DNA of 64,000 nt from Halorussus sp. MSC15.2 (GTDB taxonomy: Archaea; Halobacteriota; Halobacteria; Halobacteriales; Haladaptataceae). The stretch spans positions 1 to 64,000 of the forward strand of contig NZ_VSLZ01000004.1 of the NCBI RefSeq assembly GCF_010747475.1, given 5' to 3'. How positions within the stretch are numbered: the stretch's first letter is position 1; each line of letters opens with the position of its first letter. Positions 19,787 through 34,363 of the stretch are shown one piece after another. Below the pieces are notes generated by a model that was not told where the DNA came from, searched no databases, and worked only from the letters and a program-made list of their open reading frames with translations. The position numbers and the translations under genes are program-made.

Positions 19787-19834
19787 CGCTAACGCAACCG
19801 TTTACGTAACTGTAAACGTTAACGCAAACGACTT
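19787..19834. repeat. 12-bp array a: four in-phase units with CGNAAACG/CGTTTNCG octamers
   Basis: Units CGCTAACGCAAC, CGTTTACGTAAC, TGTAAACGTTAA and CGCAAACGACTT follow one another with no gap. A CG (once TG) opens every 12 bases. It is the first of a family of such arrays spread from 19.8 to 34.4 kb. Confidence 0.75.
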
Positions 19835-21081: not shown

Positions 21082-21141
21082 CGTTTACGTTAACGAAAAC
21101 GCATCCGAAAACGGTACTGGATACGCAATCGTAAATGTTGT
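21082..21141. repeat. 12-bp array b upstream of parA, five units
   Basis: Units CGTTTACGTTAA, CGAAAACGCATC, CGAAAACGGTAC, TGGATACGCAAT and CGTAAATGTTGT run in unbroken 12-base phase between the DUF456 start and the parA promoter. They share the CGNAAACG octamer (or complement) with the parA operator. Confidence 0.78.
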
Positions 21142-21167
21142 TTCCTACACACGTGTCTGACGAAGGA

Positions 21168-21201
21168 TTAAATAGGTCGTTTGCGTTTGCGCAAACGCAA
21201 A
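21168..21201 (+). promoter_or_regulatory. parA promoter with 22-bp perfect palindromic operator
   Basis: A TTAAATA box (21168-21174) is followed by a perfect palindrome at 21180-21201 whose left half is TTTGCGTTTGC. It consists of two overlapping inverted octamers, CGTTTGCG (21184-21191) and CGCAAACG (21190-21197). The palindrome ends two bases before the parA ATG and would cover the transcription start, the position of a repressor site. Confidence 0.75.
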
Positions 21202-21203
21202 TT

Positions 21204-22094
21204 ATGCCTCGCTCCATCCGAGCCTGTACCTTCCTCGACAAGGGCGGTACGGGCAAGACGACCACCGCGGCCCACCTCGGCGTGGCGCTCGCCGAACAGG
21301 GCAACGACGTGTTGCTCATCGACCTCGCGGGCAAGCAGGGTGACCTCGTGAAGCACTTCGGACGTTGGGAGACCGTCGAGCGCCAGATAGCCGAGGACGA
21401 CGACTGGCCCAACATCTCCACGGTCTTCCAAGACCAGTGGAGCGCCATCGCCGAGAAGTTGGGCGACGCCGCGGTCGAAGGACTCATCCTCGACACCGAC
21501 GAGGGCGTGGACCTGATTCCCGCCCACCCCGGTCTTGACAGCCTCGACGCCGAACTGGGTAACATCGACGACGCCCACGACCGCTACTCGCGACTCGATA
21601 CGTTCTTGGACGAGTACATCGAACCGCTGGGCTACGACGCCATCCTCATCGACCTGCCGGGTCTGACGAACAACGTCAGTTACAACGGTCTCTGGGCCGC
21701 CCGGAACGTCATCGCGCCGGTCGAGATGGGACCGTTCGAGTCCGAACAGGCCGAGGCGCTCCGGGCCGACCTCGACAAAATCGGCGCGAACTTCGGCGTG
21801 GACGTGCGACTCGCCATGGTCCTCCCGAACAAGGTCGACACCCGGACGAAACTCGCCGAGGAGTACCTCGACGCCTTCGAGGAGGCGTACCCCGACGCGT
21901 TCGTGTCGTCGCACGTCCCGGTGAGCCAAGACATCCGGAACGCCGCCGAGTCGGGCCGGACCGCGTTCGCGCTCGAAGAGCCATCGACGACTGCCGCGCG
22001 CGCACGCGAAGCATTTCTCGAAACTGCCGCGACACTGACCGAGCGGTTGGAGCGCGCCGAACCGGCAGCGACCACGGGAGGTGAGACGGCGTGA
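21204..22094 (+). CDS. parA: ParA-family partition-type ATPase
   Basis: A 296-residue deviant-Walker ATPase. Walker A is KGGTGKTT at residues 13-20, the A' strand reads DVLLIDLAGKQGDL, and Walker B is YDAILIDLPGLTNNVSY. This is the ParA/Soj/MinD superfamily; such ATPases bind DNA or membrane when ATP-bound and move cargo or plasmids. The ATG at 21204 is chosen because it follows the TATA box and palindrome by the expected leaderless distance. The stop overlaps the next gene by four bases (GTGA). CGNAAACG arrays lie on both sides. No ParB homologue is visible, so the small downstream gene is the likely partner. Confidence 0.92.
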   Translation: MPRSIRACTFLDKGGTGKTTTAAHLGVALAEQGNDVLLIDLAGKQGDLVKHFGRWETVERQIAEDDDWPNISTVFQDQWSAIAEKLGDAAVEGLILDTDEGVDLIPAHPGLDSLDAELGNIDDAHDRYSRLDTFLDEYIEPLGYDAILIDLPGLTNNVSYNGLWAARNVIAPVEMGPFESEQAEALRADLDKIGANFGVDVRLAMVLPNKVDTRTKLAEEYLDAFEEAYPDAFVSSHVPVSQDIRNAAESGRTAFALEEPSTTAARAREAFLETAATLTERLERAEPAATTGGETA

Positions 22095-22483
22095 GCGACC
22101 CCGACCTCGAAGAACTCCGCCAGCAGACCCAACGCACCGACCGTCTGGCCGAACCGGCGAGCAGGGAGGACGAGAGCGACGATTTGGTGGAGGACCTCGT
22201 CGACGCGCTCGCGGCCATCGACTCGGGCGAGCAGGCCAAGACGTTCGCGGCCCGCGACGAGTCGGTGACCGCGCTCCTGACGACGCTGGCAGAACGCGAA
22301 CAGGACCTCGAAGCGGTCGGGACTTCGCTTCAGAGCGCGCTGGGACGGGACGTGGACCGCGACGCGCTCGACCGGAGCGAGGTCGTCCGACTCGCGGTCC
22401 GTCTGGGTCTGCGGGAAGCAGCCCCGGAGTATCTGGACCTCCTCGCGGACGCGTCGGGTGAGTACGCCCGACGCAACTTCTGA
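22091..22483 (+). CDS. Small acidic ParA-partner protein (candidate centromere-binding factor)
   Basis: A 130-residue protein starting at a GTG that overlaps the parA stop by four bases, so it should be co-translated. The N-terminal third is acidic and probably disordered. The C-terminal region (LDRSEVVRLAVRLGLREAAPEY) resembles the helix 1-helix 2 part of ribbon-helix-helix DNA-binding domains. In many plasmid partition operons the gene after parA encodes the centromere binder. Two inverted blocks of CGNAAACG arrays begin 17 bases after its stop. The DNA-binding role is an inference. Confidence 0.7.
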   Translation: MSDPDLEELRQQTQRTDRLAEPASREDESDDLVEDLVDALAAIDSGEQAKTFAARDESVTALLTTLAEREQDLEAVGTSLQSALGRDVDRDALDRSEVVRLAVRLGLREAAPEYLDLLADASGEYARRNF

Positions 22484-22499
22484 CAGGCCGTATCACAGC

Positions 22500-22636
22500 C
22501 GTTTTCGAAATCGTTTTCGACTGCGTTTCCGTTGTGCGTTTACGGCCACGTTGTCGAATTCACTCGCTTTTCGTTTCCGATATCGTTCGCGGTATCGTTT
22601 CCGTTATCGTTTACGAAAATGAAATCGTTTCCACGG
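22500..22636. repeat. 12-bp array c-left: CGTTTNCG-oriented units after the parA operon
   Basis: Two runs: CGTTTTCGAAAT, CGTTTTCGACTG, a 13-base CGTTTCC unit and CGTTTACGGCCA (22500-22548); then CGTTTCCGATAT, CGTTCGCGGTAT, CGTTTCCGTTAT, an 18-base unit from 22608 and CGTTTCCACGG from 22626. All read CGTTTNCG on the plus strand. Confidence 0.78.
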
Positions 22637-22714
22637 CTGTTCACGTGTGGATTTTGATTCGATTCAGTCTCGCGACGCGCCCGCCTTCGTCTCGGCATGT
22701 GTTCCGCGCGAATA

Positions 22715-22750
22715 CGAAAACGTATACGTAAACGTCTACGCAAACGTGGT
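22715..22750. repeat. 12-bp array c-middle: CGNAAACG-oriented units
   Basis: Three exact-phase units, CGAAAACGTATA, CGTAAACGTCTA and CGCAAACGTGGT. Their orientation is opposite to the block at 22500-22636, with about 80 bases of ordinary sequence between. Confidence 0.75.
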
Positions 22751-22812: not shown

Positions 22813-22862
22813 CGGAAACGTATCCGTAAACGAAATCGCAAACGATTTCAAAAACGTAAGCG
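22813..22862. repeat. 12-bp array c-right: CGNAAACG-oriented units
   Basis: Four units, CGGAAACGTATC, CGTAAACGAAAT, CGCAAACGATTT and CAAAAACGTAAG, then a further CG. It ends about 75 bases before the next gene and completes the 457-base intergenic region after the parA operon. Confidence 0.75.
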
Positions 22863-25337: not shown

Positions 25338-25816
25338 GGACGACCGTTCCGGCGCGTCGGTCTTTGTTACACACCTCCTGCCGGTCGCTCGTCCGACTTA
25401 GCGTCGTCCTGTGGTCGCAGTGCGGTCGGGCCTCGACGGAGGCGTCATCGTCTCTAGTGCCGGTATCGCCCGCGTTCCCGGTCCGATTTCCGTCTCCGTT
25501 TTCCGTTCCGTCAGCGTCACCGATTCCGTTTTCATTATCGTTTTCGAAACCGTTTACGTAAACATTTGCGTCAGGTCCGCCGGAGTCAGTCGCGTTGTCG
25601 GACTCGAACTGGACTCGGCGGGCGTATCGACCGAGTGCATCGGTACCCCCTCTGAATATGGACACGCCGTACCGAGTCAATCTGCACTGTGTCGTCCCGG
25701 CCGCAAACGCATACCTGTCGCCCAAACTTCGACGAACGCACCACCTTCGAATCGTCTCCCATTCACACCCGCAACTGCACCCGCAATTTATGACCTCTCG
25801 GGTGTCATTACCTATC
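25338..25816. other. Divergent intergenic region with CG-phased array
   Basis: Separates the MCM-like gene and the FAD/Fe-S dehydrogenase. It contains the phased array at 25485-25570 and, at 25786-25791, a TTTATG box 27-31 bases before the dehydrogenase ATG. Open frames crossing it are low-complexity products of the repeats and are not taken as genes. Confidence 0.55.
25485..25570. repeat. Array d: CG dinucleotide every 6 bases, with 12-bp CGTTTNCG units
   Basis: CG occurs at 25491, 25497, 25509, 25515, 25521, 25527, 25539, 25545, 25551, 25557 and 25569, all in the same 6-base phase. The clearest 12-bp units are CGTTTTCGAAAC (25539) and CGTTTACGTAAA (25551). It reveals that the basic period of the family is six. 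Confidence 0.7.
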
Positions 25817-28795
25817 ATGTCGTCTCCGCCCGCCGACGGTCTCGACGTCGAGAGCTACCGCGAATCGGTCGGTATCGACGCGCCCGACGACCCCGCTCAC
25901 ACCGAACTGGCGGCCGCCCTCCGCCGGGCGTGCGAGGGCGAGGTCCGGTTCGACGAGTACACTCAGATTCTGTACGCGACCGACGGGAGCATCTACCAAG
26001 CCCGGCCCGCGGGCGTCGTCTTCCCGACCGACGCCGCCGACGCGCAGACCGCGATGGCGGTGGCGGCCGACCACGACGCGCCGGTTCTGCCCCGCGGCGC
26101 TGGGTCGTCGCTGGCCGGGCAGGCCGTCGGTCCCGGGTGCGTCGTCGTCGACTTTACGCGGCACATGGACGCGATTCTGGACGTGGACCCCGAGACCGAG
26201 CGTGCGACGGTCCAACCCGGCGTCGTGCAGGACGACCTCGATTCGCGTCTCGCGGAGGACGGCCTGAAGTTCGCGCCCGACCCGGCGTCGTCGAACCGCG
26301 CGACGGTCGGCGGAGGTATCGGAAACAACTCGACGGGCGCACACTCGGTCCGGTACGGCATCACCGACGCCTACGTCGAGGCGGTCGAAGCGGTCCTCGC
26401 CGACGGAAGCCGGATTCGCGCCCGAGAGGTCGAATTCGACGGTCCCGAGTACGAGCGTATCGTTTCGAAGGACGACCGCGAGGCCCACATTTACCGCACG
26501 GTCCGCGCCATCGTGGAGGGGAACGCCGAGGAGATAGCCGAGCGATACCCGGACCTCAAGCGGTCGGTGTCTGGCTACAACCTCCACGAGTGCGTTTACG
26601 AAAACGCAAACGGAAACGAATGCGTAAATCTCGCCAAGCTGTTCGTCGGCGCGGAGGGGACGCTGGGCGTCGTGACCGAGGCGACCCTCTCGCTGGTCTC
26701 CAAACCCGACGAGACGGCGGTGGCGCTCTACTGCTTCTCGGACCTGCTGTCGGCGATGGAGGCGGTCCCCGTCGCGCTCGACTACGACCCGAGTGCGGTC
26801 GAACTCATGGACGACGAGGTGTTCCGACTGGCCCGGGAGTCCGCAGAGTACGCGGAGTACGCCGACCCGATTCCCGACGACGCCGCGGCCGCGCTGATGC
26901 TGGAGTTCGACTCGGAGGTCCACGACGACCTGACCGACGCCGTCGCCGAGACCAACGCGGAGTTCGTCCGCGATGGCGAGGCCTTCGACGTGCTGGAGGC
27001 TTACGACGACGAGTCGCAGGCGAAACTGTGGAAACTCCGGAAGGCCGCCATCCCCCTGCTGATGAGCATGGAGGGCGACCCCAAGCCCTACCCATTCATC
27101 GAGGACGCCTCGGTGCCGCCCGCGGAACTGGCCGAGTACGTGCAGGGGTTCGAGGGCGTCTTGGAGGCCCACGACACCTCGGCGGCCTACTTCGCCCACG
27201 CCGGAAGCGGCACCCTCCACGTTCGACCGGTGCTGAACCTCAAGTCCGAGGCGGACGTCGAGAAGATGCAGTCCATCGCCGAGGACGTGACCTCGCTCGT
27301 TCTCGACCACCACGGGTCGTTCTCCGGTGAGCACGGCGACGGACTGGCCCGCACCCAGTTCAATCCCAAGATGTACGGCCCGGAGCTATGGGACGCCTTC
27401 AAGCAACTCAAGACCGCCTTCGACCCAGACTGGCGGATGAACCCCGGGAAGGTGGTCTTCGAGGAGGAGTCACCCACCGACATGCGCGAGAACCTGCGGT
27501 ACGGCCCGGCCTACTCGTCGCTCGAACCCGCGACCGAGCAGGATTTCTCCAAGGAGGGCGGCTTCTCGCACCTCGTGGAACTCTGCAACGGGTGCGGAAC
27601 GTGCCGACAGACCGACTCCGACGTGATGTGTCCCTCCTACCGCGGCATGGACGAGGAGGTGGCGACCACTCGCGGCCGGGCCAACATGCTCCGGGCCGCC
27701 ATCTCCGGCGAACTCCCGCCTGAAGAGATGCACACCGAACGATTCCAGAAGGAGGTGCTGGACCTCTGTCTCGGCTGTAAGGGCTGCCAGAGCGACTGCC
27801 CGACCGGCGTGGACCTCGCCAAACTCAAAGCCGAGGTCAAACACCGATACCACGAGGAGGAGGGCGCGAGCCTGCGCGAGCGACTGTTCGCCGAGGCGGA
27901 CCGACTGGCCGCGGTCGGGTCCGCGCTCGCGCCGGTGTCGAACTGGCTGGCCGACCTGCCGGGGACTGGTCTCGTCGCCGAGAAGGCGCTGGGCGTCGCC
28001 CGCGAGCGCGACGTCCCGGCGTTCGCCGACCAGTCGTTCGAGGCGTGGTTCGAGTCCCGCGGCGGTCCCCGAGTCCCTGAGTCCCGCGCCGACGACAGGG
28101 TCCTGCTCGTGCCGGACACCTACACCAACTACGTCTATCCCCGGACCGGCCGGGCCGCGGTGCAGGTCCTCGAAGCCGCGGGCGTCCACGTTCGAGTTCC
28201 CGACGCCGACCCGAGCGGCCGCCCTGCCTACTCCGAGGGATTCCTCGACGTGGCGCGCGAACGCGCCGAGTCGAACGTCGTCCGCTTCGCCCCGCGGGTC
28301 CGCGATGGCTGGTCGGTCGTCTACCCCGAACCCTCCGACGCAGCGATGGTGCAGGACGAGTATCTGGACCTGCTCCCCGACGCCGAGGGGGCCGCGGCGC
28401 TCGCCGAGAACGCCTACGGCGTCTGCGAGTACCTCGACCTGACCGGCCGCGACGAGGAAATCGAGTTCGACGCCCCTGCAGACCGACTCGCCTACCACGG
28501 CCACTGCAACCAGAAGGCGCTTGGCACCGCCGACCACGCCGCCGCGGTCCTCGACCGGGCGGGCTACGACGTGGCCGCGCTCGACTCGGGCTGTTGCGGT
28601 ATGGCCGGGAGCTTCGGCTACCACACCGAACACTACGACCTCTCGCAGGCCATCGCCGACGACCTGCGCGACCGGATTTCCGAGGCCGACGCCGACGAGG
28701 TGGTCGCACCGGGCGCGTCCTGCCGGTCACAACTCGAAACCCAGCGTCCGACCCACCCCGTCGAGAAGTTGGCCGCGGCGCTCCCGTGGCGCTGA
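25817..28795 (+). CDS. FAD-linked oxidase fused to Fe-S/CCG domain (D-lactate/glycolate dehydrogenase-like)
   Basis: A 992-residue fusion. Residues about 30-530 are a GlcD-type FAD-binding oxidase (PRGAGSSLAGQAVG, ASSNRATVGGGIGNNSTGAH, LFVGAEGTLGVVTEA, HHGSFSGEHGDGLAR). Residues about 590-680 carry two ferredoxin-like clusters (CNGCGTC and CLGCKGCQSDCPTG). The C-terminus has a CCG-type domain (GHCNQKALG, SGCCGMAGSFGYH). Such enzymes oxidise D-2-hydroxyacids at the membrane and pass electrons to quinone; the exact substrate is unknown. A TTTATG box fits the ATG at 25817. Residues about 259-271 (VYENANGNECVN) come from an in-frame 12-bp repeat array. Confidence 0.9.
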   Translation: MSSPPADGLDVESYRESVGIDAPDDPAHTELAAALRRACEGEVRFDEYTQILYATDGSIYQARPAGVVFPTDAADAQTAMAVAADHDAPVLPRGAGSSLAGQAVGPGCVVVDFTRHMDAILDVDPETERATVQPGVVQDDLDSRLAEDGLKFAPDPASSNRATVGGGIGNNSTGAHSVRYGITDAYVEAVEAVLADGSRIRAREVEFDGPEYERIVSKDDREAHIYRTVRAIVEGNAEEIAERYPDLKRSVSGYNLHECVYENANGNECVNLAKLFVGAEGTLGVVTEATLSLVSKPDETAVALYCFSDLLSAMEAVPVALDYDPSAVELMDDEVFRLARESAEYAEYADPIPDDAAAALMLEFDSEVHDDLTDAVAETNAEFVRDGEAFDVLEAYDDESQAKLWKLRKAAIPLLMSMEGDPKPYPFIEDASVPPAELAEYVQGFEGVLEAHDTSAAYFAHAGSGTLHVRPVLNLKSEADVEKMQSIAEDVTSLVLDHHGSFSGEHGDGLARTQFNPKMYGPELWDAFKQLKTAFDPDWRMNPGKVVFEEESPTDMRENLRYGPAYSSLEPATEQDFSKEGGFSHLVELCNGCGTCRQTDSDVMCPSYRGMDEEVATTRGRANMLRAAISGELPPEEMHTERFQKEVLDLCLGCKGCQSDCPTGVDLAKLKAEVKHRYHEEEGASLRERLFAEADRLAAVGSALAPVSNWLADLPGTGLVAEKALGVARERDVPAFADQSFEAWFESRGGPRVPESRADDRVLLVPDTYTNYVYPRTGRAAVQVLEAAGVHVRVPDADPSGRPAYSEGFLDVARERAESNVVRFAPRVRDGWSVVYPEPSDAAMVQDEYLDLLPDAEGAAALAENAYGVCEYLDLTGRDEEIEFDAPADRLAYHGHCNQKALGTADHAAAVLDRAGYDVAALDSGCCGMAGSFGYHTEHYDLSQAIADDLRDRISEADADEVVAPGASCRSQLETQRPTHPVEKLAAALPWR
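26593..26628. repeat. Array e: three 12-bp units inside the FAD/Fe-S dehydrogenase gene
   Basis: CGTTTACGAAAA, CGCAAACGGAAA and CGAATGCGTAAA in exact phase. Because 12 is a multiple of three the array keeps the frame and adds an Asn/Glu/Val-rich loop just before the conserved NLAKLFVGAEGTLG motif. Confidence 0.75.
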
Positions 28796-34315: not shown

Positions 34316-34363
34316 CGTTTTCGTATCCGCAAACGTTTGCGTTTTCGAAATCGAAAACAGTCT
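34316..34363. repeat. 12-bp array f, four units
   Basis: CGTTTTCGTATC, CGCAAACGTTTG, CGTTTTCGAAAT and CGAAAACAGTCT in exact 12-base phase, alternating in octamer orientation, between the ends of the convergent Nudix and HTTM genes. This is the array farthest from parA. Confidence 0.75.

Follow-up and report, generated by a model that had tools for sequence, protein, structure and literature searches.

The window, i.e., the whole 64-kb stretch of DNA analysed here, carries a two-gene operon in which parA is followed by a small overlapping gene, orf2 (Table 1). The AAA_31/CbiA match of ParA begins near residue 12, and the protein has no N-terminal DNA-binding (HTH) extension, unlike the type Ia ParA regulators, which carry one. 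In the relatives orf2 is annotated as hypothetical; a small orf2 adjoins parA in most other genera as well, the overlap not being universal there. Where the contigs are long, the operon-bearing replicons measure 300-560 kb, and several of them are complete plasmid records. The operon-bearing contig of the source genome is 405 kb long, and the H. aquaticus operon lies on a 434-kb plasmid record.

Table 1. Features of the parA-orf2 locus and of the hexad clusters in the window.
Feature	Position	Strand	Basis or remark
Outlying hexad cluster	19787..19830	.	Apparently between convergent genes (ends 19534 and 19967)
Upstream hexad array, 6 units	21082..21117	.	Phased cluster at similar place in all 14 species
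GTCTGACG element immediately 5' of TATA box	21155..21162	+	(Nearly) invariant in 14 Halorussus promoters
TATA box TTAAATA	21168..21174	+	Sequence; GGAYTAART kept in 14 species
Operator, four contiguous hexads CGTTTG CGTTTG CGCAAA CGCAAA, enclosing 22-bp palindrome	21178..21201	.	Sequence and conservation
parA, 296-aa Walker ATPase, P-loop near residue 12	21204..22094	+	Pfam AAA_31 5.5e-18, CbiA 8e-16; PDB Soj/ParA relatives
orf2, 130-aa putative centromere-binding/repressor protein	22091..22483	+	4-bp overlap with parA
Array directly 3' of orf2, first part	22500..22619	.	Hexad runs
Array 3' of orf2, second part	22709..22746	.	Hexad runs
Array 3' of orf2, third part	22813..22848	.	Hexad runs
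Outlying hexad cluster between MCM-OB-domain gene and FAD oxidase gene	25539..25562	.	
Six phased hexads within FAD-linked oxidase ORF	26593..26628	.	Encodes YENANGNECVN
Outlying cluster, 7 hexads	34316..34357	.	Apparently between convergent genes

The operator is placed between the TATA box and the ATG of parA (21204), and its hexads follow each other in the order forward-forward-reverse-reverse. They enclose TTTGCGTTTGCGCAAACGCAAA (21180-21201), which is identical to its own reverse complement, confirming the perfect 22-bp palindrome that an earlier note on this DNA had described; its position between TATA box and start codon was also given correctly. This is the longest palindrome of the window and the sole perfect one above 16 bp. 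The same note had seen in it two overlapping array octamers. Indeed, CGTTTGCG at 21184-21191 and CGCAAACG at 21190-21197 have two bases in common, but a third octamer had been overlooked: with an additional copy of CGTTTGCG at 21178-21185, the operator holds three overlapping octamers (21178, 21184 and, reversed, 21190). With 11 copies in the window, CGTTTGCG exceeds the expected number of 3.5. The statement that the operator uses the motif of the arrays stands as well, both being built from CG hexad units with a 6-bp phase.

Upstream of the TATA box, we made a side observation. GTCTGAC occurs upstream of 45 of 63 haloarchaeal parA genes, and GTCTGAC(G) is also found before ParA types with unrelated partners (source genome C6, L027, L028); it is absent before the Orc1/Cdc6 genes of the source genome. 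The motif may reflect a shared regulator or a core-promoter element of plasmid partition genes.

Runs of at least three CGNWWN hexads number 10 in the window, compared with 0.23 expected under a first-order Markov model, and all 10 fall between 19.8 and 34.4 kb. The strict array motif, CGNAAACGNNNNCGNAAACG, matches the 4.4-Mb source genome 13 times, of which 10 fall between 21 and 27 kb in the window; its reversed control has no match in the source genome or in any genome compared. Over the 14 operon-bearing genomes, 116 of the 140 matches are no more than 20 kb away from parA (for two, the distance runs past the end of a record that was treated as circular), and three nearly complete Halorussus relatives without the operon have no match. 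In one of these three, G017, a looser hexad pattern forms two clusters (C2:164182 and C2:252383), perhaps relics of an integrated or lost plasmid. At the 14 Halorussus loci, the spacing of neighbouring sites is a multiple of 6 bp in 189 of 203 cases, and column counts at the arrays show CG at every sixth step with A/T in between.

Further clusters are found at a distance. A five-hexad run at C4:353 kb of the source genome (L050 2626-2657), apparently between convergent genes, is separated from parA by about 73 kb on the assumption of a circular contig, and H. aquaticus has a similar distant cluster at 380746. Since the clusters at 19787-19830, 34316-34357 and C4:353 kb all apparently lie between convergent genes, they are unlikely to be promoters, and this placement argues for a non-promoter role of the arrays. 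The arrays were also considered as replication origins, a reading that we rejected because the 15 kb around the plasmid Orc1/Cdc6 gene (C4:372 kb) contain no hexad runs. The only Orc1/Cdc6 match on the megaplasmid contig (C4:372159-373254) is split over two frames, possibly by a frameshift or an assembly error. As for the six phased hexads at 26593-26628, they dictate the peptide YENANGNECVN of the FAD-linked oxidase, and an identical 20-mer is found in both H. aquaticus and G006; a loop of this protein seems to be shaped by a DNA-binding constraint.

The relatives with which we compared the locus were Halorussus. A close ParA (86-99% identity) is carried by 13 of 17 same-genus relatives and by the window's own genome, giving 14 operons. 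Conservation upstream of orthologous parA genes, a check proposed in the earlier note, was borne out when we ran it: the palindrome core lies directly before parA, exactly once per genome, in 14/14 Halorussus genomes with this parA, and it is missing from the four Halorussus genomes that lack this ParA, one of which is just 62% complete. Across the 14 promoters, 21 of the 22 palindrome columns are invariant, the single change being CGCAAA to CGTAAA in H. caseinilyticus (L004), at the degenerate position of the hexad; in the same comparison, 16% of the fourfold-degenerate parA sites are invariant. Since the five bases immediately 5' of the palindrome vary freely among these promoters, selection acts on the palindrome element itself. 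No match to the palindrome was found in viral contigs.

Homologues of orf2 are found in 79 of 342 haloarchaeal genomes, belonging to 31 of 89 genera. In the other genera, the corresponding positions (the stretch from TATA to ATG and the DNA just 3' of orf2) carry different motifs. When the 45 bp before parA were compared with the 250 bp after orf2, 163 common octamers were counted over 50 operons, many of which are related to each other; dinucleotide shuffles of the same operons averaged 21.8 and never exceeded 39, the observed number being 7.5-fold the shuffle average. The six-letter version of this shared-word test was weaker than the eight-letter one, and at the window locus alone the sharing was not significant with either version.

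The motif also follows the orf2 protein. Residues 53 and 55, in a putative DNA-contact strand, fall into the classes A-R, S-R and S-W. Proteins of the A-R class go with CGNAAACG operators (in Halorussus, but also in Natrinema, from another family), those of the S-R class with CGNATACG operators, and those of the S-W class with CTATAG operators of 12-bp spacing; the spacing in the CTATAG class is a multiple of 12 bp in 96 of 134 cases. Altogether, 43 unambiguous calls agree with the strand class, none contradicts it and 2 are ties, while three operons with a class call have no expected motif before the assigned start. Operators again matched the strand class in a second set of operons, fetched afterwards, and the two operons of Nanosalinarum, which differ in strand class, have different motifs to match. 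With the strand excluded from tree building, few class changes are needed (one for A-R, two for S-W and two to three for S-R), so that the covariation rests on a handful of independent events. The largest array that we observed belongs to a CTATAG-class operon of Halocatena marina (L045), where some 50 sites, many of them in 12-bp phase, are scattered along the 5 kb upstream of parA.

The orf2 protein has a putative strand, KTFAARD (50-56), a putative helix, DRSEVVRLAVRLGL, and an invariant Arg18 in its N-terminal tail. In the alignment of its homologues, a strand-like KTxxxxD precedes a helix DRSExxRLAxR, forming a strand-helix-RSE-helix pattern. We consider that the fold is probably a ribbon-helix-helix (RHH)-like dimer. 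In Pfam and NCBIfam, orf2 itself matched no family above cut-off; RHH_1 was the family most often matched among its homologues, weakly (6 of 17, best E 0.047). An hhalign comparison of orf2 with the genome's own RHH proteins aligned only 12 columns, in helix B, and the short KTLSLYD homologue had no RHH match when scanned with Pfam. AlphaFold monomer models of the full-length protein (pLDDT 76) and of its putative DNA-binding part (pLDDT 82) had no significant structural match; since a monomer cannot form the RHH strand pair, we did not count this against an RHH fold. No partition protein was found with the orf2 profile among PDB chains, and no orf2 relatives were found in phages.

Considering all the above results, we are fairly confident in reading the palindrome as the autoregulatory operator of a plasmid partition operon, parA-orf2, with orf2 as the putative centromere-binding protein of both operator and arrays. 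The earlier note had proposed one DNA-binding protein for the two, and this proposal gains support, at the level of sequence, from the conservation, from the 7.5-fold octamer sharing and from the tracking of the partner protein by the motif. It had taken this binder to be a partner of parA but left open which one; the evidence favours a partner and points to the protein encoded at 22091-22483. Because ParA has no N-terminal DNA-binding extension, this 130-aa protein, and not ParA, is the best candidate.

According to our model, an orf2 dimer would bind the 6-bp-phased CGNWWN units. On the arrays around the operon it would build the partition complex moved by ParA; sitting on the four units that separate the TATA box from the start codon, it would block transcription initiation, allowing the operon to sense the level of its own centromere-binding protein. 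The TATA box precedes the ATG by about 33 bp, which, at the spacing known for haloarchaea, implies a transcript that is leaderless or almost so. Transcription is therefore expected to start at the ATG or a few bases before it, which places the four-unit block over the initiation region, and we infer that repression would occur by occlusion of this region. The strict conservation of the operator in 14 species suggests that one small protein may both help to move the plasmid and control its own gene.

Alternatively, an unlinked chromosomal regulator or chromatin protein could bind operator and arrays, with orf2 acting merely as a ParA adaptor. This would be consistent with the structural searches, which gave no fold match for orf2, and with the hexad clusters of G017, a genome without parA-orf2. 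However, the palindrome and the strict arrays are both missing from the three nearly complete operon-less relatives, and the motif changes in step with orf2 between operons, even within the Nanosalinarum genome. We regard this alternative as unlikely. Somewhat less likely still, the palindrome could be a purely transcriptional operator and the arrays separate elements, e.g., replication or silencing sites, with the same motif by happenstance. The centromere role of the arrays is one that we infer, which leaves room for such a separation; yet the motif and the 6-bp phase are the same, octamers are shared across 50 operons, and the 15-kb neighbourhood of the plasmid Orc1/Cdc6 gene lacks hexad runs. 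Finally, a long perfect inverted repeat adjoining a start codon might act as an RNA hairpin at the 5' end of the parA transcript, or be a chance or compositional feature, but we find this very improbable, as a TATA box about 33 bp before the ATG leaves most of the palindrome upstream of the start site, the CTATAG-class operators, which occupy the same place, consist of spaced repeats and not of long hairpins, and chance is excluded by the conservation.

Control of parA-orf2 by its own centromere-binding protein is thus the explanation that we prefer. We further lean, with less assurance, towards a widespread and undescribed haloarchaeal partition family, in which the centromere-binding protein would read 6/12-bp-phased units through a strand code (T-A-R, T-S-R, T-S-W), and each plasmid lineage would have its own matching operator and centromere, predictable from the protein sequence. 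The nature of the centromere on archaeal chromosomes and plasmids has been listed as an open question (PMC5120986). In the open-access literature, with most subscription journals and preprints outside its coverage, we found no described haloarchaeal plasmid centromere or orf2 partner family. The parA-orf2 locus represents a concrete candidate centromere for a haloarchaeal plasmid, and, with the protein family and the motif rule, the centromeres and compatibility groups of haloarchaeal plasmids could be deduced from sequence. The sharing of one kind of site by operator and centromere, a bacterial principle, would also be extended by this locus to haloarchaeal megaplasmids.

By analogy with known partition systems, parA-orf2 probably works like type Ib ParABS, which relies on an RHH centromere-binding protein. 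The Walker ATPase lacks an N-terminal HTH extension, the small partner gene lies downstream in the same operon, and the repeated units near the operon also overlap the promoter, as judged from the sequence. Type Ia ParABS, with its HTH/CTPase ParB, was rejected, since orf2 has no ParB family match in Pfam or NCBIfam. The layout resembles that of the archaeal SegAB (Saccharolobus), but SegAB is chromosomal and its sites are dispersed, mostly in genes; identity with SegAB was rejected, the SegB motif TCTAGASTCTAGA having 0 matches in the window with up to 2 mismatches. Between orf2 and the SegAB partner, no sequence link was detected either. On the archaeal plasmid pNOB8, AspA recognises a 23-bp palindrome that lies upstream of the gene encoding it, and then spreads (PMC5120986). 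The AspA-ParB-ParA system thus shares with ours an archaeal plasmid and a palindrome upstream of the system's own gene, whereas it has three genes in a different order and a single palindromic nucleation site instead of phased arrays.

In TP228, ParG binds both the centromere, parH, and an operator preceding parFG, through which it represses these genes; the N-terminal tail of ParG carries an arginine finger (PMC7308502). The invariant Arg18 in the N-terminal tail of orf2 may sit where such a finger would be expected. We found no sequence relation between ParG and orf2, and parH consists of tetramer boxes with AT-rich spacers, unlike the 6/12-bp-phased CG units of the Halorussus sites. In the delta-omega system of pSM19035, an RHH-ParB binds 7-bp units overlapping the partition promoters, which makes operator and parS one, and ParA is already activated by four contiguous units (->-><-<-) (PMC9499535). 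Our system differs in its 6-bp, CG-bounded units, in its haloarchaeal host, in arrays that also lie kilobases away between convergent genes, and in orf2, which has a putative fold and no detectable sequence relation to the pSM19035 partner. Nevertheless, both combine ParA with a small partner, and the Halorussus operator has the same number and order of units. By this analogy, parA-orf2 is most likely a ParA system whose centromere-binding protein, ribbon-helix-helix-like, would repress its own operon through a centromere-type site.
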